A stretch of DNA of 64,000 nucleotides from Rhodamnia argentea (Eukaryota; Streptophyta; Magnoliopsida; Myrtales; Myrtaceae). Under the pieces are notes generated by a model. It searched no databases and was not told the origin of the DNA. It saw only the letters and a program-made list of their open reading frames with translations. Below, in pieces: positions 14,514 to 61,640 of the stretch. The stretch is taken from positions 23,132,934 through 23,196,933 of the forward strand of contig NC_063151.1 of assembly GCF_020921035.1 (NCBI RefSeq), written 5' to 3'. The position numbers and the translations under genes were made by a program. Position 1 is the stretch's first letter, and every line of letters starts with the position of its first letter.

Positions 14514-15098
14514 GGGCATGTTGACTAAAAATCCTAATACTTGTCACGAAAGTACAATGAAGTCCTAAAATTTGCAAAAAAGTGTAATCGAGTCCCGAAA
14601 CTCGTCAAATTGATCCAATCGAGCCCTTCCGTTAATTTCGTCCAGTTTGATCGACGTAAATTGCTGACGTGGCTTTTTTTAAATATTTTCTCTCTCCTAC
14701 GTGGCCATGATGTGGCTAAAATGGCGTCGTTTTTGTCCAAATCCGATTTTTGATATAACATTAATTTAAATTAATTTAAATAAGGTATAATTTTCAACCC
14801 AAAAAAAAAAATAGAACCAGCAGCGTGGCTACATGGTCCTATTTTTTTTAAATTTACCTTATTTTTTAAATCGATTTAAATTAAAATTATATTTAAAACA
14901 TATTTGAACCAAAATGATGTCATTTTAGTAATGTCATGGCCACGTTAGAAAGAGAAAATATTAAAAAATGTCACGTCGGCAATTTCCGTTAGCCAAACGG
15001 GACGGAATTAAAGTAAGGGCTCGATTGCACTTTTTGCAAATTTTAGGATTCGATTGCACTTTCGTGTCATGTTTTAGAATTTCTAATGAACATATCCC
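14514..15098. mobile_element. Foldback/MITE-like DNA element with long inverted arms
   Basis: The first and last roughly 85 bp are imperfect inverted copies of each other. Both arms share the blocks GACACGAAAGT or GTCACGAAAGT, then CCTAAAATTTGCAAAAA and GTGYAATCGA. Both ends begin GGG. The interior is AT-rich with further inverted blocks and no coding frame. I could not find a clean target-site duplication: the left flank ends AAGTTGAGG and the right flank begins AAAATCAAC. Long arms of this kind are typical of Mutator-like MITEs, but the superfamily is inferred. Confidence 0.6.
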
Positions 15099-22100: not shown

Positions 22101-22755
22101 CGTCTTGAAATTGACAATTGAGATGTGCTTGATTGATAAGCCATCCTCCGTTACGGATAAGACGGCATACGTCTCTGTCCCATCTATCAATATTGATTGA
22201 TGGAATGAATTTTCATATAGTTTAGGGACTTCATTAAATGTGTACCAAAAATTTAAAGATCATGTTGAACAAATCAAGACAACATTGCATGTTGAGTTAA
22301 AGTTCAGAAACCACATTGAACACATTAACATTGGGCTAAAGTTGAGAGACCGCATCAAACAAATTAGAAGTCCATGAACTACATTACACATCGGGCCAAA
22401 GTTCAAGAATGATTTTGCTATGCAGCATCCCCCTCCCCGGAGAACACGTCAGCTTTGCTCTAGCACGGAAAGCCACTTAAAAAGTGTACGCACAACGCTA
22501 TGTAACTCCTTGGATAGAACTGAAAACCAAGTGCTACAGAATTTTAAGTGTAGAGAAATTGAAGTAAAAAGGTATTTTGATAATGGTTGAATATTAAGTA
22601 CTCAATAATATTATTTTCCTGCCAAATTTAGAATTTTGAGCATTATGAGTAAGTTTTAACCACACACTTGGCAAATTTCTGATTGCCTATTTTTTTTCCA
22701 TTGAGCGAGTAAAGTGATCTCTTCCCTACTTAAACTAATCAAGTGATTTTGGAAT

Positions 22756-22811
22756 TCAATTGAATGTTTCAAGTCAAAACTGGTTACTTTTCACTTGAAA
22801 CATTCAATTGA
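22756..22811. repeat. Perfect 19-bp inverted repeat
   Basis: TCAATTGAATGTTTCAAGT at 22756-22774 is exactly the reverse complement of 22793-22811, with an 18-base loop. It lies in non-coding duplicated sequence. It is AT-rich and looks like transposon debris more than a terminator or a MIR gene. Confidence 0.7.
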
Positions 22812-22888
22812 AAGTAACTTTGTTAACCTTATTTTTTGGTTTTAGGGAGTAAGTCTTCACCCACCGAATCGTAATCGATCGAGCTTAA

Positions 22889-29406: not shown

Positions 29407-31056
29407 ACCTATCTCTTGTTCGGCCTAACAATTGTAGCTGATTCACATGTAACTAGACGAGTCAATTAAGTAAAAATGCTCGTAAAAGAAGTAAAAGTAC
29501 TGCTAAATTGTTTTCAAAGGCACATTTATTAATTTTACTAAATGAAGTTGCCTCCTCAAAGTATAGCAAAACTGTTGTCCAGTTGAGGGAAAGAAATGTA
29601 TTCTCTCCACAAATTTAACCTCCATAACGGGGATTACACTGGTAAAATTCCTTTTGTGTAAAAGCTATGAATAATGAATCTAACTAACAAGAAATGAATA
29701 GATGGTTTATCATTATCTTAAAAACTCCTTCAAAAGTTAAGGATTAGTGGGATCGGTAAAGAGGCAGTAATCTTCTTTTATTTTAATCTCATTGCTGGTT
29801 CTCAATTTCATGAAGCACATTACCATATCTAGAGTGGTCATAAGTGAATTTGAAAAAGTACAATGGAAGTCGAGGATAGAAATCTCCGAATTTGGACATA
29901 AATCGAAGGAGCCGTGTAACGCGATAGCGTCACGTACTTATGTTGTAGTAGACTAGTGAAGAGATGGGGCCTTGCCTCGGTCATCATTGAAATGAAACAT
30001 TTCACTTGTAGAGATTTATGCAGATCTTTTACGTAGAAACACCACAAACGCTACAGGTCAGCTGATATTGTGAGGATGATGATGATGATAACTTTTCATC
30101 TAGAGATTTTAATAGGTACGGCTCGGACAGCGCCATAACTAATTAAAGAGGACTAGTCCAACTTTTTTTTTTTTCTGTATAAAATATCGCCGTGTTTGAA
30201 ATTATAACAAGTGTGTTTATTCAATAAGATGTGTCATTAGTTATTTAATTTTCGAAATAGATTTACTGTCAATATTCTTTTTCTTTGTACTTGTAAATTT
30301 AAACTGAATAAAGAGATAATTCGTCAACGTGTTTTTGTTCTTGTCATTTTATAAATGTAAATGTAATGAGGAACCAATTCCACACTTCAAATCGCAAAAC
30401 ATTAATAAAATATTTTATTTTCGTAGCACTTAGATATAATTTATGTAAATGTTAACTGAATGAATTGATTTTACGTTATTTTAGTAATAGCATTCACCAT
30501 AAGTTACGTTGATAATTTGTGAAGTAACAAATCCATTAAAGAAAACATAGTTGTTGATTGCATGCAACTTATGTGTAGATGTTAATCATTTACGATAGAT
30601 TAATTTCTAAATAATGACGTTGTGCAAAATGTTAGAAATTATTTGAATAATCTTATGAGTTATATTATATATTTGGTGTTCGCAGTGTGAAATGTACATT
30701 TGAAGTGACCTGAGATTTGCATATTGGATAGCACCAATCTTGACATATCGAATAGTTCGTTGCTTCTATAAACAATAATTCCTTGCTTGTTCACCCCACA
30801 GATCATATTCCTCGCAGTCTATACAACAAAGAAGGAAGAAGAAGAAGATGAGCATTGCCTTGAATCAAAGCAAACTAGGTCGCTGATATTCTTTGCCTTT
30901 GTCCATATGGTGCTTCTAAAAGAGACTAATCGTGATTCCTTCCTTCTTTCTTGGCTCAAATGATTCGTGGATTTCATTTTCTGAACGATAAGATTCCTCG
31001 CGGCTCGACCCCGACGAATAGAAAAGAAGAAGAAATGTTCCATTTCTGCTCTTGAA
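29407..31056. other. AT-rich spacer upstream of the NLR gene
   Basis: There is no supported gene. The NLR promoter and leader should lie in the last few hundred bases, where a purine-rich GAAGAAGAAG tract sits at about 30830-30848. Confidence 0.45.
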
Positions 31057-31206
31057 GTGAAGAAAAGGCTCCTATATCCTTTCCTTCGTTCTACTGGCCG
31101 GAACAATCAACCCAAATATTGCAGAGCTTATCGAACTCCACCCGTTCGCCGGCTTTCCAACCTTCTAAACAGACCATCTTTCGATCTCGTCCCGGAAAAA
31201 AAACCT

Positions 31207-33906
31207 ATGGAGCTCGCAAGTTCTCTTTTAGAACTCGTCAAAGAGTTATGGGGCTTTGCCAGCAAACGTTTGGGATACGTCTCTAATCTGAAAGATAATG
31301 TCCGGTCGTTGCGGAGCGAAACTGACAAGCTGAAGGCCAAGCGCAAAGATGTGCTGGCAAGGGTGGAACTTCAAGAAGAAGGAGGAGACGCACGGCGCAC
31401 AGAAGAAGTGGCGTGCTGGTTAGACACGGTGCAAAAATTTCTTGATCGGGTAGATCAAGTTCTTCAAGAAGCCGAGGAACGTGACCGAATCAAATTTCTC
31501 AGTCGTTGTCTTCCGCCAAACTGCTGGTCCAGTTATAAATTGGGGAAAAGAGTCGATGAAATGCTCAATGAAGCGAGAGAGAACCAACCTAAGGGTGGAG
31601 AATTCGCCATTGTGACGTTGCCGTTGCCTCCTCCTCGAGTGCTCGAGATGCCTATGGACAAGACCGTGGGGCTTGACATTTCCGATAATACCGTGGGGCC
31701 TGACATTTCCCATATTAATAAAGTGTGGAAATGGCTCGTGGAGGAAAAACAAGTAGGAGTGATCGGGTTGTACGGAACAGGCGGTGTAGGAAAAACCACC
31801 CTCATGAAAAGGATCAACGAGAAACTTTCCCGCGCAAATCATGGATACGAGGTTGTTATTTGGGTGGTGGTATCCAGGCAAGTGAACGAAGATAGCATTC
31901 GAGATACTATAAGAAAAAGGCTGGACATTCCGGATGAGAGCTGGGATCGATGGCCCCGGGATGAGAAGGTCCATCGTCTGTGGGAAGTTTTAACCCGGAA
32001 GAAGTTTGTGTTGTTGATTGATGATGTATGGGCGATGCTGAAGCTTTCGGAAATTGGAGTTCCTCATCCTAGTCTCGAGAACGGATCCAAAGTAATATTC
32101 ACAACTCGGTTGAAGCAAGTATGCGACCAAATGGGAGCCGACGAAACTTTCGAAGTACAGTGCCTAAATCCTGAAGAAGCCATGGAATTATTTGAGAATA
32201 GTGTCGGAAAGTTGATTGTACATTCTGATCCAGAAATTCCAAAGCTTGCAAAGGACATTGCTGGAGAGTGCAAAGGGCTGCCACTTGCCCTTACTACCGT
32301 CGGGAGAGCCATGGCTGGCAGAAAGAATCCCCATGAGTGGAAGCATGCGCTAACAACGCTCAGGAACAATCCACACAAACTGTCAGGTACGATGGAAGAA
32401 ATGTACCACATACTAGAGTTCAGTTATGATAGCTTAAATGACTATACCATTCAACGTTGCTTCCTTTACTGTTGTCTCTTCCCTGAGGATTATCCCATAA
32501 GACCGCACGATCTTATTGAACACTGGATTGGAGAGGGCTTTCTAGGAGACAACGATGACGTATATGGTCTGCGGGATAAGGGAGAGTATGTCTTGGGGAG
32601 TTTAAAGTTGGCTTGTCTATTGGAGAGGGGGCCTGATGATTTTGAGGGAGAGAATGTAAAGATGCACGATGTCATCCGTGATATGGCAACCTGGATCGCT
32701 CGTGACCACGGGCAAAGGGAGAACAAGTTACTAGTGATAGAGAAGGAAGAAGACATGTCTGCGAAGATGATCTCCAAATGGGAGGAAGCGGAGAAAGTAT
32801 CTCTATGGGGAACACGGATTGTGAATATCGACCGAACACCATCTGGGTGCTCCCGACTCGAAACTTTGTTTGTCAGGGAAACTGAAGTGAAGCTCTTGCC
32901 AAGAGGATTTTTTGACTCAATGACGGCTCGTTTGATGGTCCTGAACCTTTCTGGCAATAGATATATGGAGTTATTTCCGAAAGAGATTTGCGATCTCATT
33001 AACCTACGGTACTTGAACTTGTCGAACACTAGCATCGGTGAGCTGCCAATGGAAATCAAGAAATTGACTCATTTACAGTGGTTGCTATTAGACGATTTAG
33101 CCTTCCCCTTCCTAATTCCGGCAGGGGCAATCGAATGCTTGCCGTTGATTGTGTTCAGCCTGTGGGGTACAGGAACTAGGGATTCGGGTCTAGTGAACAA
33201 AGATGAGATACTAGAGGAATTAAGGCGCATGCAACATCTCGCGGACTTATCATTTGTAGTGTTCGAGTCTTGCTCTGCCTTGAAGATATTTCAATGCCCG
33301 AGTTTGCAGAGAAGCATAAGGAGAGCGGGGATCACTGATAGCAAGGACTTGACCTGCATCCCAATAAGTTACTCACCAACAGGCAGCGGCGGCTTCTCGC
33401 ATTTAGAGGAGCTTTATCTAGAGGACTGCGCCATGCTCAGGAAGATCGAGATCACTCCAGGAGGAGGACGAGCGCCCGATTGCTCTTGCTTTCCCAATCT
33501 CGTCGTGGTTACGGTGTGGAATTGCGGGCTAACGGACTTGTCATGGCTCGTTCACGCTCCGAAAGTCCGGCGCTTGGCTGTCTACATATGCCATTCGATG
33601 GAGAAAATAATTGGGGATGGAATTGCGCCGGAGGAATTGGCTGCTTCAGGACTATTCTCCCGTCTCGAATCTCTAGTGATCAGCAGTCTTCCAAAACTAA
33701 CGAGCATCTGCGACCAGACTCTATCCTTTCCTCAGCTGGGCACACTTTCCATAGAGGGGTGCCCTCGTCTCAGAAAGTTGCCGGTAGACTCGAACAGCGC
33801 GCGCGGAAGCTTGGAATCGGTCTATGCGGAAGCCAACTGGTGGGCCGAGTTACAGTGGGAAGATGATGCCGCCCGGGCCAATTTCGCCGCCAAACTCGTG
33901 CAATAA
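31207..33906 (+). CDS. CC-NBS-LRR disease resistance protein (RPS2/RPS5-like)
   Basis: Intracellular immune receptor that senses pathogen effectors. A single exon encodes 899 residues from the start MELASSLLELVKELWG. The frame is open 150 bp further upstream, but that part (MKKRLLYPFL...) is unlike any coiled-coil domain, so I chose 31207. The coiled-coil N-terminal region has repeated charged heptads. The NB-ARC domain has the P-loop GTGGVGKTT (Lys 196), kinase-2 KFVLLIDDVW (266-275), RNBS-B KVIFTTR, GLPLAL (from 357), RNBS-D CFLYCCLFPED and MHD at 486-488 (VKMHDVIRDMA). A leucine-rich repeat region follows to the end. All nucleotide-binding motifs look intact, so it is probably functional. 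A 27-bp tandem duplication lies in the linker before the P-loop. Confidence 0.95.
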   Translation: MELASSLLELVKELWGFASKRLGYVSNLKDNVRSLRSETDKLKAKRKDVLARVELQEEGGDARRTEEVACWLDTVQKFLDRVDQVLQEAEERDRIKFLSRCLPPNCWSSYKLGKRVDEMLNEARENQPKGGEFAIVTLPLPPPRVLEMPMDKTVGLDISDNTVGPDISHINKVWKWLVEEKQVGVIGLYGTGGVGKTTLMKRINEKLSRANHGYEVVIWVVVSRQVNEDSIRDTIRKRLDIPDESWDRWPRDEKVHRLWEVLTRKKFVLLIDDVWAMLKLSEIGVPHPSLENGSKVIFTTRLKQVCDQMGADETFEVQCLNPEEAMELFENSVGKLIVHSDPEIPKLAKDIAGECKGLPLALTTVGRAMAGRKNPHEWKHALTTLRNNPHKLSGTMEEMYHILEFSYDSLNDYTIQRCFLYCCLFPEDYPIRPHDLIEHWIGEGFLGDNDDVYGLRDKGEYVLGSLKLACLLERGPDDFEGENVKMHDVIRDMATWIARDHGQRENKLLVIEKEEDMSAKMISKWEEAEKVSLWGTRIVNIDRTPSGCSRLETLFVRETEVKLLPRGFFDSMTARLMVLNLSGNRYMELFPKEICDLINLRYLNLSNTSIGELPMEIKKLTHLQWLLLDDLAFPFLIPAGAIECLPLIVFSLWGTGTRDSGLVNKDEILEELRRMQHLADLSFVVFESCSALKIFQCPSLQRSIRRAGITDSKDLTCIPISYSPTGSGGFSHLEELYLEDCAMLRKIEITPGGGRAPDCSCFPNLVVVTVWNCGLTDLSWLVHAPKVRRLAVYICHSMEKIIGDGIAPEELAASGLFSRLESLVISSLPKLTSICDQTLSFPQLGTLSIEGCPRLRKLPVDSNSARGSLESVYAEANWWAELQWEDDAARANFAAKLVQ
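31663..31716 (+). repeat. 27-bp tandem duplication inside the NLR coding sequence
   Basis: Positions 31663-31689 and 31690-31716 match at 24 of 27 bases and repeat the codons for TVGLDISDN/TVGPDISHI. Relatives usually have one TVGLD block followed by a short linker and VWKWL, so the linker ahead of the nucleotide-binding domain is nine residues longer here. The frame is kept. Confidence 0.85.
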
Positions 33907-54865: not shown

Positions 54866-57207
54866 GGTACTCAATAATTTATTTTTTAATTTTCATTAAG
54901 CAAGATGAGAGAAAACACAGCAACCGCTAAGGGGTTCGTAAAAGCGGATTGTGAAATCCTAAACTCTTAATAACGGCTGAATAACTTAGAAAAACATCAT
55001 CCTCAATAAGCAGTGACCCCAACAAAAGGCCATAATGCAATATGAATGATCATGAAGCTTGACCCGTGGGCAATTTGGTCCAACCTTGAAGCCCAACAAC
55101 AACATTCCATCTTGGGCTGTGAATCAAGTTATCTTGGGCCAAACCTAAGGCCCATTGCGAGCTCTGTATCTTGTGTCCCTCTGCTCTCCCGAGGAGACAA
55201 CACTCCAGTGCAGAGCAATAACAACTGCAGCTCGACATCCCCGCGCTACAGGACTGACGAGAACATTCCTTGACCAGGTGCTTCGTCCTCGCTCTTTACG
55301 TCTCTAGCTGGCTTCTGCTTGCTTCTCGTTGTCCGTTTCTATTATCCCTAGCATTTACATGTTGTCAGCTCCCACAAACTGCTTGCTTGGTTGGGTGTCC
55401 CCGAAAAAGTTCGTTTCTATTTTCCCGGTGCCTGGTCCGGTTCTGTTCCTAGAAAAATTGAAGCTGAGAAACGAACCCTGGTTCAAGAGAACTTGAAACC
55501 GGATCGAAAATCGGTCTAAATTCAATGCAAGCATGTACGATTGCGTCGTCCCCATCACCACCGAATTAGACTGGCCTCCACTCTTTCTCCTTCTTGGCTT
55601 TTCATGTCTCTCCTGAAGAATATGTTGGTAGCCGTAAGACCCCTTTGCTTGCCCCAACATGGATCTGACGATGCATGCTAAAACATAGCAAGGGCCTAGC
55701 CATGGGCGCCAGCGAGGTGGCAGTAAACTCCCTTGCCGCCTTCGACTCTCCCTCAATGTGTATGTAAGCTAGCACAGGTCGTAAGTCCGTTTCGATTTAC
55801 ATCTATCACAGGTTGAAATCTAAACGAACAGCTTCGGCCGCAGAAAGAGAGAGGAGAAAAAGCTACGAAAAGGCCTGCAAGATGACATGGGACTCGCCCA
55901 AGATGCCAATTCATAAGCAGCGTCGAACGTGATCAAGCAGGACACACTTGCTGTTCTTCAATCTTTTTCGCAGCTTGCTCGAGCCAACACTTAAACTCAT
56001 CAAAAGAAGGGTGTTTCGCAGCTCAATATTCGGAGGATTGCTACGATCTTCCTCCTCTTTCTTCACTCCTGCCGCAGCGCCGGTTGTTCCACCATGACCA
56101 TCTGTGGATCTTGGCTAACACCAATCTTGCGAAATCGCACGACGGGGACACCAGCGAGCACAACCCCACCAGGCACCCGATCGCACTCGCCTCTGTCTCC
56201 CTCATCAATCTCTCAATTCCCCTGTATTGTAGAACATGGAGACCTGCATAAAGGACCCCGTTAGAGATTCGAACAACCTCATGCGAACATGCTTAAACGT
56301 TTGTAATTTAAAGGATCATTCAAGATCATGAATTATCAATTACAACAGCATAAAAATGACCCATAAAATGATCTAACACTGAGAGAAAGAGAGAGGATGC
56401 CGGGAAGATCAGCCGAGTTAAAAACAGATTCTGAGCATGTAATTGAGGTCCGAGCCTATGAATCACCGCCCCCTCCTCCTCGCATTTTGTGCACTTAGAC
56501 AGACTCCTTCTGGGATAACGACCAGAAGAAGAGAGCTTGTCATTGCTCCTGTGCTCATCATCCCACGGGCCACCTATACATAAAGGAGAAACGTGGCGCC
56601 AGCCCATCACAGCCACGTGTAAAGGACTCAGTATGGTGGCCTTGCTTTTACTCCGATAAGTCCTCCAATTTGAGGGGCCTCACAGAAAAAAAAATGCGGT
56701 TCACACGGATCATCGAACGAACTCGGGACCCGATTTCTTGATAAAATATCAAATAAAAACTTAAAATGCCTTAATTCTCCCAAATAAAACTATGAAATAA
56801 AACATATTTCACATAATGATGTCCTCTTTTTCTTAAATTAATGGCGGAGCTTATTTCAAATAAAAATTTGAAGTAGCCATATCAAACTTAAAGAAGAGCA
56901 TGATCTTGCCGGCAGAAGGGCATTTTCATCCTTTACTTTTTTCAAATCATTTGACAACTTCAGAGCTTTATTTGAGAATATTTTGCCCCTTGTTTGAAAT
57001 AAGTTTCAATTCCCAGAGAATTAGGACATTCCATGCCTTTATTTGAGATTTTTTCCCCAATTTCTATAATGTACAGAAGAGCGATTCGATTTGGATCGAG
57101 TGAGTGGGGGACATGCTATGAGCTACTGGTGGGTTTGGTCCAGCATTTTAAATGGGATTTGGATTTAAATGGGATTTGGAGAAATGCAGATGCCTTCAAT
57201 CTGGAAG
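54866..57207. other. Spacer without a recognised gene
   Basis: Mixed AT-rich and GC-balanced sequence. At 56735-57060 there are loosely inverted blocks around CAAATAAA and TTTATTTGAGA that could be an old MITE. The short open frames (for example 55355-55756 and 56326-56616, minus) have no motif I know. Confidence 0.4.
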
Positions 57208-57523
57208 AGTTTGAAAAATGCTAATTGCGTTTAGTAAAAACTCATTTGAAAATGGACATTGGGTTAAATAGTGTTTGGTAAAAACAACTTGATAAAAGGG
57301 GCTTTGAATGTAATTTTTTGACCTTTTATGAAAAAAATTCTCAAGCCCTTCACTAGACCGGCGAAGGTTTCGGGCCATTGGCGAGCCGGTTACGGCGCCG
57401 GCGGCCTTGTTCGAGGTCGCTCGACCTTGGGCCTCCCTCGCCGAGGATTGCATTGAGCTTTCAATTTTAAGTTAAATGCTGATTTAAAGCTAAACTAAAC
57501 ACTTCAGCATTTTTTCAAAAGGC
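57208..57523. mobile_element. Short MITE-like element with GC-rich core
   Basis: Ends TTTGAAAAATGCTAATTGCGTTTAGT and, reversed, TTTTGAAAAAATGCTGAAGTGTTTAGT form terminal inverted repeats of about 27 bp. The core at 57350-57455 is GC-rich. No coding frame and no certain target duplication. Confidence 0.55.
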
Positions 57524-57754
57524 TTTGGAGCCTAAGGCTACTTGAAAATGCTGAACCTAATCCACGTAACTGCAGCCTATCTGTACCGCAACGTGCTAAG
57601 TCAAAAAGAAAGTAATCACTGCTCTCTCTGTCGACACCCTTGTCCCGTGCCGTGGAATCCCGATGCTTCGGATCCGGCCAAGAGTCGAGCACAGTACACG
57701 GCCCCATCCAAAATGATAGTACCGAACCCCGCAGCGGTAGTACAATGGCCGACC

Positions 57755-57766
57755 CTTCTATAAGTG
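57755..57766 (+). promoter_or_regulatory. TATA-like box ahead of the hairpin
   Basis: CTTCTATAAGTG lies about 95-100 bp upstream of the long hairpin that starts at 57858, a plausible pol II arrangement. No other evidence supports it. Confidence 0.3.
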
Positions 57767-57857
57767 AACCCTGCAATCCCTTTCCCAGCTCAGATCACGT
57801 TGACCCGATCTACACAGCCTTATAATAAAGCTTGGGAAGAGTTTTTCCTTTTGCGTT

Positions 57858-57974
57858 GGCAGGGTCTGCGCAAGGCTCAGGGCAATGTCCATTACACGAG
57901 CTTTGTCTCCTCTTAGCGTGTGAGAGTTATGTTCCATGCAATGGACATTGCCTTGAGCCTTGCACAAACTTGCC
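57858..57974 (+). ncRNA. Candidate microRNA precursor hairpin
   Basis: Left arm 57858-57900 and right arm 57932-57974 fold into one long stem of about 42 pairs with a loop of about 31 bases. The central 26 positions (CAAGGCTCAGGGCAATGTCC then ATTACA, against their complement) have only about two mismatches, and bulges are confined to the stem base. Size, arm length and loop are typical of a plant MIR foldback. I do not recognise either arm as a conserved family: it is not miR397, miR398 or miR408, which target laccases. It may be a young lineage-specific MIR gene or an inverted gene fragment. The strand is chosen from the TATA-like box upstream. Confidence 0.5.
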
Positions 57975-58619
57975 ATCTTTTCCTCTTCGGAATCAGAAGT
58001 TTAGCATCCTGGTTTGCTGTTGCTGTTGCTGTTGCTGGTGGGTATAGAAGGCTCCTGTTTTCTGGGTTCTTTTTGCTTCGTATAGGACCGTATTCCGGGC
58101 CGGTTCCCGCACATTAGATTGAGTTCGGCAATTACTTGCTTTCAATCTAGCGCTGTAGATCGGAAGTAAGGCATCGGTACCGGGATCACAAGATTCCTAA
58201 CCCGTTGTTGTCCTTATGATTATCGCCATGTTTTGTCACAAACTCTCAATTGCAGGTACAGAGACGATCTCGGACGACATGTCCAAAGTTCAGGCGAGAG
58301 CATTCAGAGTAATGTCGGAATCTGAACTCGATCTCTCGCCGGTCGTGGGAAATCAAGCCTGCGCGTGAATTACTCCCCTTCAATTTCGCCGAAGTTCAGA
58401 GGGCATCATCAGAGCAAATCTCAGTTTTAAGTTGATTTATCAGATTCGGTTATTTATTAGTCGATATTTGACAGCTTTGTACTTTCATCTTTTCAAGCTC
58501 TGGTACTACTCCTAGTACTACCACTTTCATATATGTGCTAGCAAGATCCTCGTACATCGTACTTGTACGTGCGCAAGACTATTTCAGTCTTACTATTGTA
58601 GATATTGTTGTCGACATGG

Positions 58620-59365
58620 AGCTCTAAAGCGTGTCCAAACACCGTGAAGGATTTTCCGTTGGTTAGAAAATATTTTCCGTTGATCACGTATTTTTTTGGC
58701 CCTCCAAACACTAGAAATTGGAGAAAAAGAAATTTTTTTTCATAAAACAAACGGAGCCTAAAATGAAAACTCAATATATATAATGGAAACATTCATCGAC
58801 CCATTTAGACCCTGTTTGTTTTGCGAAAAATGTCGTATTTCTAAAATGTGCATTCAAGCGAGTCATTTTCCTTATCGTCATTTTCTCGAGAAAATGACGA
58901 TGTTTTTTTATGTTTGTTAAAATCTGAAATGAACTAGAAAAGATTTTCTGTCATTTAATATGAAAAATTCGGTTTGATTTTCCTTGTTGCATTCACTTTA
59001 ATAGTTTTTATAATTCTATTTGAAAATCAAAATTTTAATTTTTTGCCATTTTTATTTTTTTTCTTTTTCTTTTCTTTCTTTTTCAATTTCCTTCTTCTTT
59101 GGCAGGTTGCTGGCCAGGGGGACCAGCCCTAGGTGAGGTGGAGCCTCGAACCTCGTTGATGTGGCGAGCTCATCCGAGCCTCACTCACGGGCCTCGCCGC
59201 GGGCAAGCGGTTGTGGCCGGTCGAAAATATTTTTCTCACTTTTGAAGGAATTTTTTTTTATGGGTACAAAATATTTTTCTTGATTAGCTTATTTCGGCAA
59301 ACCAAACACCAAAAAATTCGAAAATTATTTTTTTGAAAATTATTTTTCGCGAAAAAAACTCCAAC
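58620..59365. mobile_element. MITE-like repeats with GC-rich core
   Basis: From about 58800 the left arm has CCCTGTTTGTTTTGCGAAAAATG. Near 59300-59360 the inverted CAAACCAAACACC and ATTTTTCGCGAAAAAAA appear. The core at 59100-59225 is GC-rich. Just upstream (58630-58760) is a smaller block between CCAAACACCGTG and AAACAAACGGAGCC. Boundaries are approximate. Confidence 0.45.
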
Positions 59366-59686: not shown

Positions 59687-61640
59687 TTAATCGGCGAAGA
59701 GCCTGTTCTGATCCGTTTGGTCGTCGAGTGGCTCTAAATAAGTCGCGAAAGAGGCTTCGCAAGCCGGCATGTTAGGAGGAGGGCTCCGGATGCTCGTCTC
59801 CGGAGTCCCGCCATTCTTCACTATCATCACCGTGCTCATGCCCCAACTCAGGTGTCGATCCAAATGGCAATGCCAAAACCATACTCCTGTCGCATTTCAT
59901 TAAGAAGAAAAAAAAAAACAAAAAAAACTTAAGCATCTCCATTTGATACTTCAGTTTTCTACTGGCAAGAAATGTCGCGAGATGAACTCACCTGGGTTGC
60001 TCGCTTTGAATCTGATGGTAACCCATCCGTTCTTGGGTACTCCGATCGTGTTCACTTCCAACGGGTCGTCGTAGTTATACGTCAATGGGTCGGTGTTGTT
60101 GTCGAAGTTCCCGTAGCCCGACCCCATGACGTAGAAACTGTACCCGTGGAGGTGCATCGGATGGTTTTCCGACGCGTTCAACACCTCGGTGCCTTGGAAT
60201 GTCATCTCCACTTCCTCGTTGTACTCCAGCATCTTCACCTTGGTCGCCTGTATCGGCACCGTTGTGTTGAAGGGCAGATCCGATTGCGTGAAGTTGAACA
60301 TCGTCGGGGGCCAGTTGGGGAAATCCAGGGTGTAGTATCCGCTCAAGTTCCTGGTTCATTTTATTGATGATTCATAGGCTTAAAGGATCCATCATCCAAG
60401 AAATTGAAGTTCTAGTAATAGTGTATGCATACCTGTAGTAGGCAAGAAGTACATCAGTTGAGGGGTTCAGAAAACTTATGTTGTTCAAGCTTGACGAGAG
60501 CCGATTCCCGTTAATCCCTTCGCACGATGCGTTCGGGCAGAGGATCTGATTCATCTCGACCGTGATGTACATCTTCGTGGTCACGTTCATCGGCACGTCT
60601 ACGGGGTGCTCCGCGCTGGCCAGGCTCCTTAGCTTCCCCAAAAATATGTCCGCCGCTATGAAGTCCTCGTACGTGGGCAAGCTATGAGGGAAGACGGGAT
60701 TGGCCGGGGCAGTGTTGTTGCCGCTGTACATGAAAATGGCAGTGACATTGGTTTTGTCGTAGTCCGTGACGTCCGGCCGGGCAGAGTCGTACTGCCTGAT
60801 GGCAAGGTAATAGTGGCCCGGGGCCTGGTTCATCGTGACCAGCACGTCCATGGTCTGCCCGGGGCTTATCACGATGAAGTCCACCGTCACGGGCTTGACA
60901 TAATTGCCGTCCAATCCCACCACGGTCATGTTGTGCTCGGCGATTGCGAGGAAGAGTTCCGCGTTCATGTCTGCGTTCACGATGCGGACGAGGTAGGTCT
61001 TGCCGTAATCGACCACCCTGCGGTACGTCGAATCTGCGAGCCAGGAAAAAAACAGCCGATCGCTAGCTTAGTTTGGTAGTTTGGTTTCCGACCAAGTGTC
61101 CCTCGCAGCTCTCTATTAGGACATTTCGAGTTTGATTTCATGGCTTACTTTTTGAGCAGTTGGCAAAATCGCCGGGTTGACCGTTGATCACGTAAGAAAC
61201 GGAACGAGGAGTGTCTGCCCCGGTTACCATGTCCTCGGCGACTTCTTGGTTAACATCGGCCGTGTACCATGATCCTGAGAGACGTCCGAGATTGTGGACA
61301 AGGACAAAAAGGATTCGCAATTCAAATTGAGATTGCAAAAAAGATTCATAAGTTAACATATCTGAAACTTTTTCGATAACACCAAGTCGACTCACCGAGA
61401 ACGATGATCTCTTCGTCATCGGGTGCAGTATAAGGATAGGAGGTTCCATCGCCAGGGTAGATCACTATGGCTCCGTGGACGCTTGATCGGGTCCAATCGC
61501 TGTGCGCGTGCCACCAGAGAGTTCCTTCTTCCTTTGAGAAAATGACCTCGTACGTGAAGTTAGTCCCTGGCTGTATTGGACATTGGGTGACGTATTCCGG
61601 ACCATCCGACCATGGATTCCTGGGCTGCTTCACGCCGTGC
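59687..61640 (-). CDS. Laccase (LAC14/LAC15-like), 3' part
   Basis: Secreted multicopper oxidase of the cell wall that oxidises monolignols or other phenolics. Five exons read on the minus strand: 61640-61396, 61274-61149, 61033-60433, 60350-59992 and 59886-59687, about 509 codons. Copper motifs: HG of the first HWHG (its first half lies in a missing exon), [19 protein letters not shown] and [12 protein letters not shown]. The residue ten after the T1 cysteine is Met, as in the LAC14/15 group from memory. Many NxT/NxS sites (NVTAIF, NASCEG, NNISF) fit secretion. The expected 5' exons with signal peptide are not found between 61641 and 64000, so the preceding intron exceeds 2.3 kb or the gene is 5'-truncated. 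Confidence 0.9.

Follow-up and report, generated by a model that had tools for sequence, protein, structure and literature searches.

Does the foldback that stands 1.7 kb from the stop codon of a laccase gene encode a plant microRNA, and if so, could it have arisen from the laccases themselves? The foldback lies in the 64,000-nucleotide stretch of DNA analysed here (the window), which is part of contig C2, and the genome searched comprises 346.7 Mb in 74 contigs, with C1–C11 measuring 23.9–37.3 Mb, C12 0.25 Mb, and C13 0.17 Mb. Laccases are copper-using enzymes with a part in lignin formation, and control by miRNAs is a recurring theme among them (PMC8438446, PMC1790633).

Structure, copy number, and surroundings of the hairpin

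The hairpin is real. Its arms, 57864–57896 and 57937–57969, form an inverted repeat of 33 nt that is 88% complementary across a 40-nt spacer, the + strand fold contains 24 unbroken pairs (57870–57893 with 57940–57963), and the − strand centroid fold has a loop with 34 unpaired nt, bearing out the stem-loop described in a first-pass annotation. That annotation had also proposed a check of stability by folding, and the minimum free energies obtained were −64.8 kcal/mol on the + strand (z = −8.41) and −68.0 kcal/mol on the − strand (z = −10.81), with 0 of 200 shuffled sequences folding equally well on either strand. The stem persists in folds that take in as much as 40 nt of extra sequence at either end, its base then lying at 57855–57858. 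The TATA-like box that had been reported about 100 bp upstream is probably the TATAAG motif of Table 1, and a second TATA-like motif lies closer to the hairpin.

Inverted repeats with arms of at least 24 nt, at most 250 nt apart, were sought throughout the window; 44 pairs emerged, and the hairpin ranks 13th among the 25 longest of these 44. Judged by eye, 11 of the 12 repeats listed above it are A/T-rich or homopolymer runs, the remaining one being found at 14676–14968 (78%). The window also holds a near-perfect 25-nt inverted repeat at 22755–22812 (96%, 8 nt between arms). Elsewhere, a single open frame on the + strand (30985–33903, 973 residues from stop to stop) has NB-ARC, winged-helix, and LRR matches and is a candidate NLR resistance gene. 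A bacterial promoter scan of the window was set aside as inapplicable to plant DNA.

Table 1. Positions of the hairpin, its parts, and associated features (window coordinates, unless a contig is given).
Feature	Coordinates	Strand	Remarks
MIR-like foldback, precursor hairpin	57858..57974	+	Fold energy; single copy found; stem stable in wider folds
TATA-like motif TATAAG	57759-57764	+	Sequence only; about 95 bp upstream of hairpin
Second TATA-like motif TATAATAA	57821-57828	+	As for TATAAG; about 30 bp upstream of hairpin
Core of 5' arm, very probably copied from laccase exon 1 in sense orientation, K-A-Q-G-N-V-H	57870..57893	+	Holds predicted miRNA*
5' arm inner end and loop start, Y-T-S-F-V	57893..57907	+	Weak continuation of laccase exon 1
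Predicted 21-nt 3p miRNA UGGACAUUGCCUUGAGCCUUG	57942-57962	+	Antisense to laccase exon 1; predicted star 57873-57893
Predicted laccase target sites	C2:33006415, C2:23306213, C3:2460714, C3:2500943, C3:2519981, C2:32909532		
Adjacent laccase gene from exon 3 through its stop codon (59687-59689)	59687..61640, approximate	-	Cu-oxidase, Cu-oxidase_3

A foldback of this kind could be an arm of a MITE or of another transposon, of which many genomic copies would be the sign, as the first-pass annotation had pointed out. Searches in which the best candidates were scored found one copy of the hairpin in the genome and no second, and 57566–58700 had no further genomic match at E ≤ 0.001 among the 40 of 148 candidates scored. 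A dispersed repeat occupies 57205–57565, with at least 39 partial copies elsewhere that are 73–87% identical (best 40 of 148 candidates scored). The end of this repeat about 290 bp upstream of the hairpin is what speaks for a transposon arm, and against the results of the copy searches we regard such an origin as very improbable.

Rfam gave 0 matches at gathering score in the whole window; the first-pass annotation had recognised no conserved family in either arm. The best sub-threshold match, MIR844, reached 28.2 bits against the 70 required, and on the Rfam result membership in a known miRNA family was rejected. Literature text searches with pieces of both arms, as DNA and as RNA, brought up four plant papers in the largest set of matches, none of the four on miRNAs by its title; supplements and miRBase fell outside the scope of these searches, so a published copy of the hairpin may exist. 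The term laccase has 0 occurrences in PMC4696225. One novel miRNA of Eugenia uniflora has three matches in the genome at one mismatch (0 for the control), a lead that, like the eleven large contigs, would fit Myrtaceae; for a second Eugenia miRNA there was no match, and its control had 1.

Likeness of the arms to laccase exon 1

Genome-wide, Cu-oxidase_3 gave 143 exon-level matches, and exon runs of laccases stand on one chromosome at C2:23.19–23.31 Mb and C2:32.70–33.01 Mb. A catalogue of 29 laccase exon 1 sequences, representing part of the genome's laccases, was assembled from 39 regex matches, 27 of which were kept by eye (the 12 dropped being other genes or frames, 2 of them read as ascorbate-oxidase-like), with L027 and L048 added by hand. 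Exons 1 and 2 of the neighbouring laccase fall beyond the window, at approximately C2:23197296–23197771.

When the genome was searched with the core of the stem, the likeness that emerged was to laccases. The core TGGACATTGCCYTGAGCCTTG, allowed up to 3 mismatches, has 12 matches in the whole genome, 2 of which are the hairpin arms, as compared with 3 for the reversed control. Eight of the 10 non-hairpin matches were read: five fall in laccase exon 1 (L004, L005, L007, L008, and L009, called laccase by eye and each with Cu-oxidase_3 exons nearby), and three, L006, L010 (FAR1-like by reading), and L011, do not. A 17-mer core at up to 2 mismatches gave 47 matches outside the hairpin versus 14 for the control. 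Six of the 47 have a single mismatch; L010 accounts for one of these and laccase exon 1 for the other five, a count that cannot be read as a probability because the matching laccases are paralogues. Two of the 41 two-mismatch matches can be placed, one being laccase exon 1 (L048) and the other, C3:2481867, lying upstream of a laccase exon 2, that of the laccase at C3:2482707. One of the core-matching laccase genes is 115 kb from the hairpin, in the same laccase run.

The likeness extends to the reading frame. The 5' arm, on the + strand, reads L-R-K-A-Q-G-N-V-H-Y-T-S-F-V and the 3' arm, on the − strand, A-Q-G-N-V-H, where the laccase counterparts are M-A-Q-G-K-V-H-Y-Y-D-F-V-V and M-A-R-G-N-V-H-R-Y-D-F-V-V; we take the A-Q-G-N-V-H region to be the point where the signal peptide ends and the mature enzyme begins. 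The N-terminal peptide of L004 had its best match in the window at the hairpin, weakly (E = 0.047, translated 57866–57907), and a hairpin arm is identical to L005 at 24 of 27 nt. Both arms have CAAGGCTC, as opposed to CATGGCTC in the five closest laccases, which fits with the arms being copies of each other. With both arms matching laccase exon 1, the hairpin is very probably laccase-derived, and the laccase adjoining it is probably no coincidence. The first-pass annotation had offered a young MIR gene and an inverted duplicate of some coding-gene segment as alternatives; the likeness to laccase exon 1 favours the two together, the miRNA output being structurally plausible.

How far the likeness reaches is less clear. 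The 18-nt core is identical to the five closest laccases at 15–17 of 18 positions per arm, whereas the next 21 nt agree at 3–6 of 21, the highest value among the 12 laccases compared being 11/21 (5' arm against L048). Where a miRNA region is better kept than the arms around it, PMC1790633 reads this as hinting that the miRNA is under selection, and the similar pattern here supports the reading of the hairpin as a MIR gene. In an anchored extension test, the arm flanks were compared with 12 of the 29 laccases, mostly those closest to the hairpin and with L027 excluded, using 400 shuffles. Equally good shuffles numbered 16 for the 3'-arm upstream flank (summed score 4), 12 for the 5'-arm downstream flank (summed score 23; best extension 15 nt), 113 for the 5'-arm upstream flank (summed score 34), and 208 for the 3'-arm downstream flank (summed score 124). 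An earlier run with 60 shuffles, in which the upstream flanks were 60 nt, gave 0, 1, 2, and 29, respectively. For each arm, then, one flank has modest support as laccase-like, and the other has none that is secure. The results fall short of the p < 0.001 at which the arms of known loci were still family-like after deletion of the miRNA region (PMC1790633); the test here was anchored, and that one used NEEDLE. Compared with each other, the outer flanks showed no likeness beyond chance (55 of 300 shuffles, and 4 of 60 in another run). The idea that a promoter was duplicated together with the arms was rejected: TTCTATA is common to both sides, but the flanks overall lie within chance.

The same data bear on the possibility that the hairpin is a MIR gene or other hairpin of independent origin, with a likeness to laccases due to chance or convergence, and with its origin or target perhaps in another gene such as the FAR1-like one on C6 (L010, 1501–1521; C6:2911432; an open-frame reading). 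This gene shares 18 of 19 nt with the 5' arm, has a target score of 3.5 (duplex −33.1 kcal/mol), and may be a target outside the laccase family; the weak flank likeness to laccases points the same way. The FAR1-like match barely extends, however (flank scores 3, 7, 0, and 0), while laccase exon 1, a tiny share of the genome, supplies five of the six one-mismatch core matches, and the hairpin is situated in a laccase cluster. An independent origin thus seems quite unlikely to us.

Predicted miRNA and its targets

All 21-mers that the hairpin contains, whichever the strand, were given a TargetFinder-like score against the 29 catalogued exon 1 sequences, with a cut-off of ≤4. The register with the most predicted targets is UGGACAUUGCCUUGAGCCUUG on the + strand, with 6 of 29 at or below the cut-off: L005 (2.0), L004 (3), L007 (3), L008 (4), L009 (4), and L048 (4), the remaining 23 scoring above 4. 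The registers beginning at + 57943 and + 57944 have 5 predicted targets each, and that at + 57941 has 3 and the lowest single score, 1.5; 21-mers of the − strand reach at most 2 of 29, with no score below 3.5. Of 3000 21-mers drawn at random from elsewhere in the window, 0 scored ≤4 against any of the 29. Duplex energies at five laccase sites range from −35.6 (L005) to −31.1 kcal/mol (L008), with −39.7 kcal/mol for a perfect site, and the site in L009 is identical to that in L008.

A preference for a 5' U and a cut about 15 nt above the base of the stem are rules of plant miRNA processing. The predicted 3p miRNA begins with U, and the predicted star starts 15 nt above the base at 57858, or 15–18 nt above it in wider folds, where the outermost pair is at 57855. 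The coincidence of the most-targets register with the 5' U and the cut site is not a blind test, since the 21-mer had been chosen before the scan as the pattern for the genome search. The predicted miRNA/star duplex consists of 21 pairs with 0 mismatches and 1 G:U, and 2-nt overhangs are possible; being fully paired, it could suit siRNA processing instead.

The 2018 standards of Axtell and Meyers reportedly call for a hairpin shorter than 300 nt whose duplex has at most 5 mismatches and lacks a large bulge, and are said to require precise miRNA and miRNA* reads in replicate small-RNA libraries. The structure found here has the stated length, pairing, and freedom from large bulges, and complementary mRNA targets are predicted for it in the catalogued laccases. 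After PMC1790633, one mark of an inverted duplication is that the arms resemble a gene family, the miRNA region included, and this is seen for the hairpin.

The neighbouring laccase was considered as a target and rejected, its exon 1 having a target score of 9 and a duplex energy of −11.9 kcal/mol. The earlier observation of no complementarity between the hairpin and a laccase therefore holds for the adjacent gene and fails for other laccases in the genome. Nor was a laccase pseudogene found around the hairpin in the window with six exon peptides, exon 4 not being among them; near the hairpin they gave one other match, at chance level (58529–58597, E = 4.7).

Relation to known laccase miRNAs

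The predicted product differs in sequence from miR397 and miR408, two miRNAs that act on laccases (PMC1790633, PMC8438446). miR857 belongs to a third miRNA family against laccases and targets LAC7 (PMC1790633); like the hairpin product it is a non-conserved miRNA against a laccase, but its sequence is different. Sites scoring ≤4 were sought in 65 loci that overlap partly, include non-laccases, and in some cases lack the relevant exon, and none was found there for miR857 or for miR408. The miR397a query agrees with the sequence in PMC8438446, and it gave sites at ≤4 in 11 of the 65 loci, corresponding to 10 genes (L029 and L060 being one gene). None of these coincides with a predicted target of the hairpin within the 65 loci. 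The miR397 site lies in mid-gene (INAALN), in contrast to the hairpin site at the signal peptide. Two of the six predicted target genes were read at the position homologous to the miR397 site and lack it, L048 and L076 (taken to be the L004 gene) scoring 12.5 each, and in the laccase adjoining the hairpin this position scores 14.

Origin and likely role of the hairpin

For 16 Arabidopsis MIR loci, an origin by inverted duplication of protein-coding genes is reported (PMC1790633). MIR161, MIR163, and MIR824 have in common with the hairpin foldback arms that resemble a protein-coding family, a miRNA region better kept than the remainder of the arms, and predicted targets among the members of the parent family (PMC1790633). 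The hairpin differs from these three in that the likeness is short, the flank test weak, and the parent family that of the laccases.

The main rival to a MIR gene is an inverted repeat of laccase origin that either stays silent or gives rise to heterogeneous siRNAs only, a by-product of rearrangement drifting towards loss. Most loci in an earlier set of foldbacks yield complex siRNA populations, and drift and death are perhaps the commonest fate of such loci (PMC1790633); a location among clustered laccases, with the nearest stop codon 1.7 kb away, would also suit a repeat of this sort, and sites at ≤4 occur in just 6 of the 29 catalogued laccases. Drift would have had to be uneven, however, with a core of 24 bp left unbroken between flanks that are little like laccases or each other. 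The register with the most targets, moreover, begins with U and has its cut site at a suitable distance, and the six exon peptides revealed no other laccase fragment near the hairpin above chance. We consider a silent or siRNA-producing repeat unlikely, though by no means negligible.

We suggest that the hairpin is probably a lineage-specific MIR gene. The explanation we favour, with some confidence, is that it is a MIR-type gene, formed within a laccase cluster when a short stretch of laccase exon 1 was duplicated in inverted orientation, and that it would repress a subset of laccases. Inverted duplication of the exon 1 segment would have given the hairpin, whose + strand would be transcribed and cut by DCL1 about 15 nt above the stem base. 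The 21-nt 3p strand, with its 5' U, would then be loaded into AGO1 and would repress the subset of laccase mRNAs whose signal-peptide/mature junction it pairs with. Among the points against this explanation are the weak likeness outside the core, the paralogy of the matching laccases, the slightly better fold of the − strand, the lower single best score of the register at + 57941, and the FAR1-like gene, which equals any laccase in its match to the 5' arm.

We put forward more tentatively, as a proposal that may well prove wrong, that the hairpin founds a new MIR family of laccase origin, and that its 3p miRNA would control, through the signal-peptide junction, a group of cluster-forming laccases that lack miR397 sites. 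If true, this would be a regulator born from its own targets, and with it miRNA control would extend to the whole laccase family. The birth of a new laccase regulator could be seen in a young MIR gene that has not left the cluster of its parent family, and one could then test if laccases in clusters acquire a dedicated miRNA where miR397 sites are missing.
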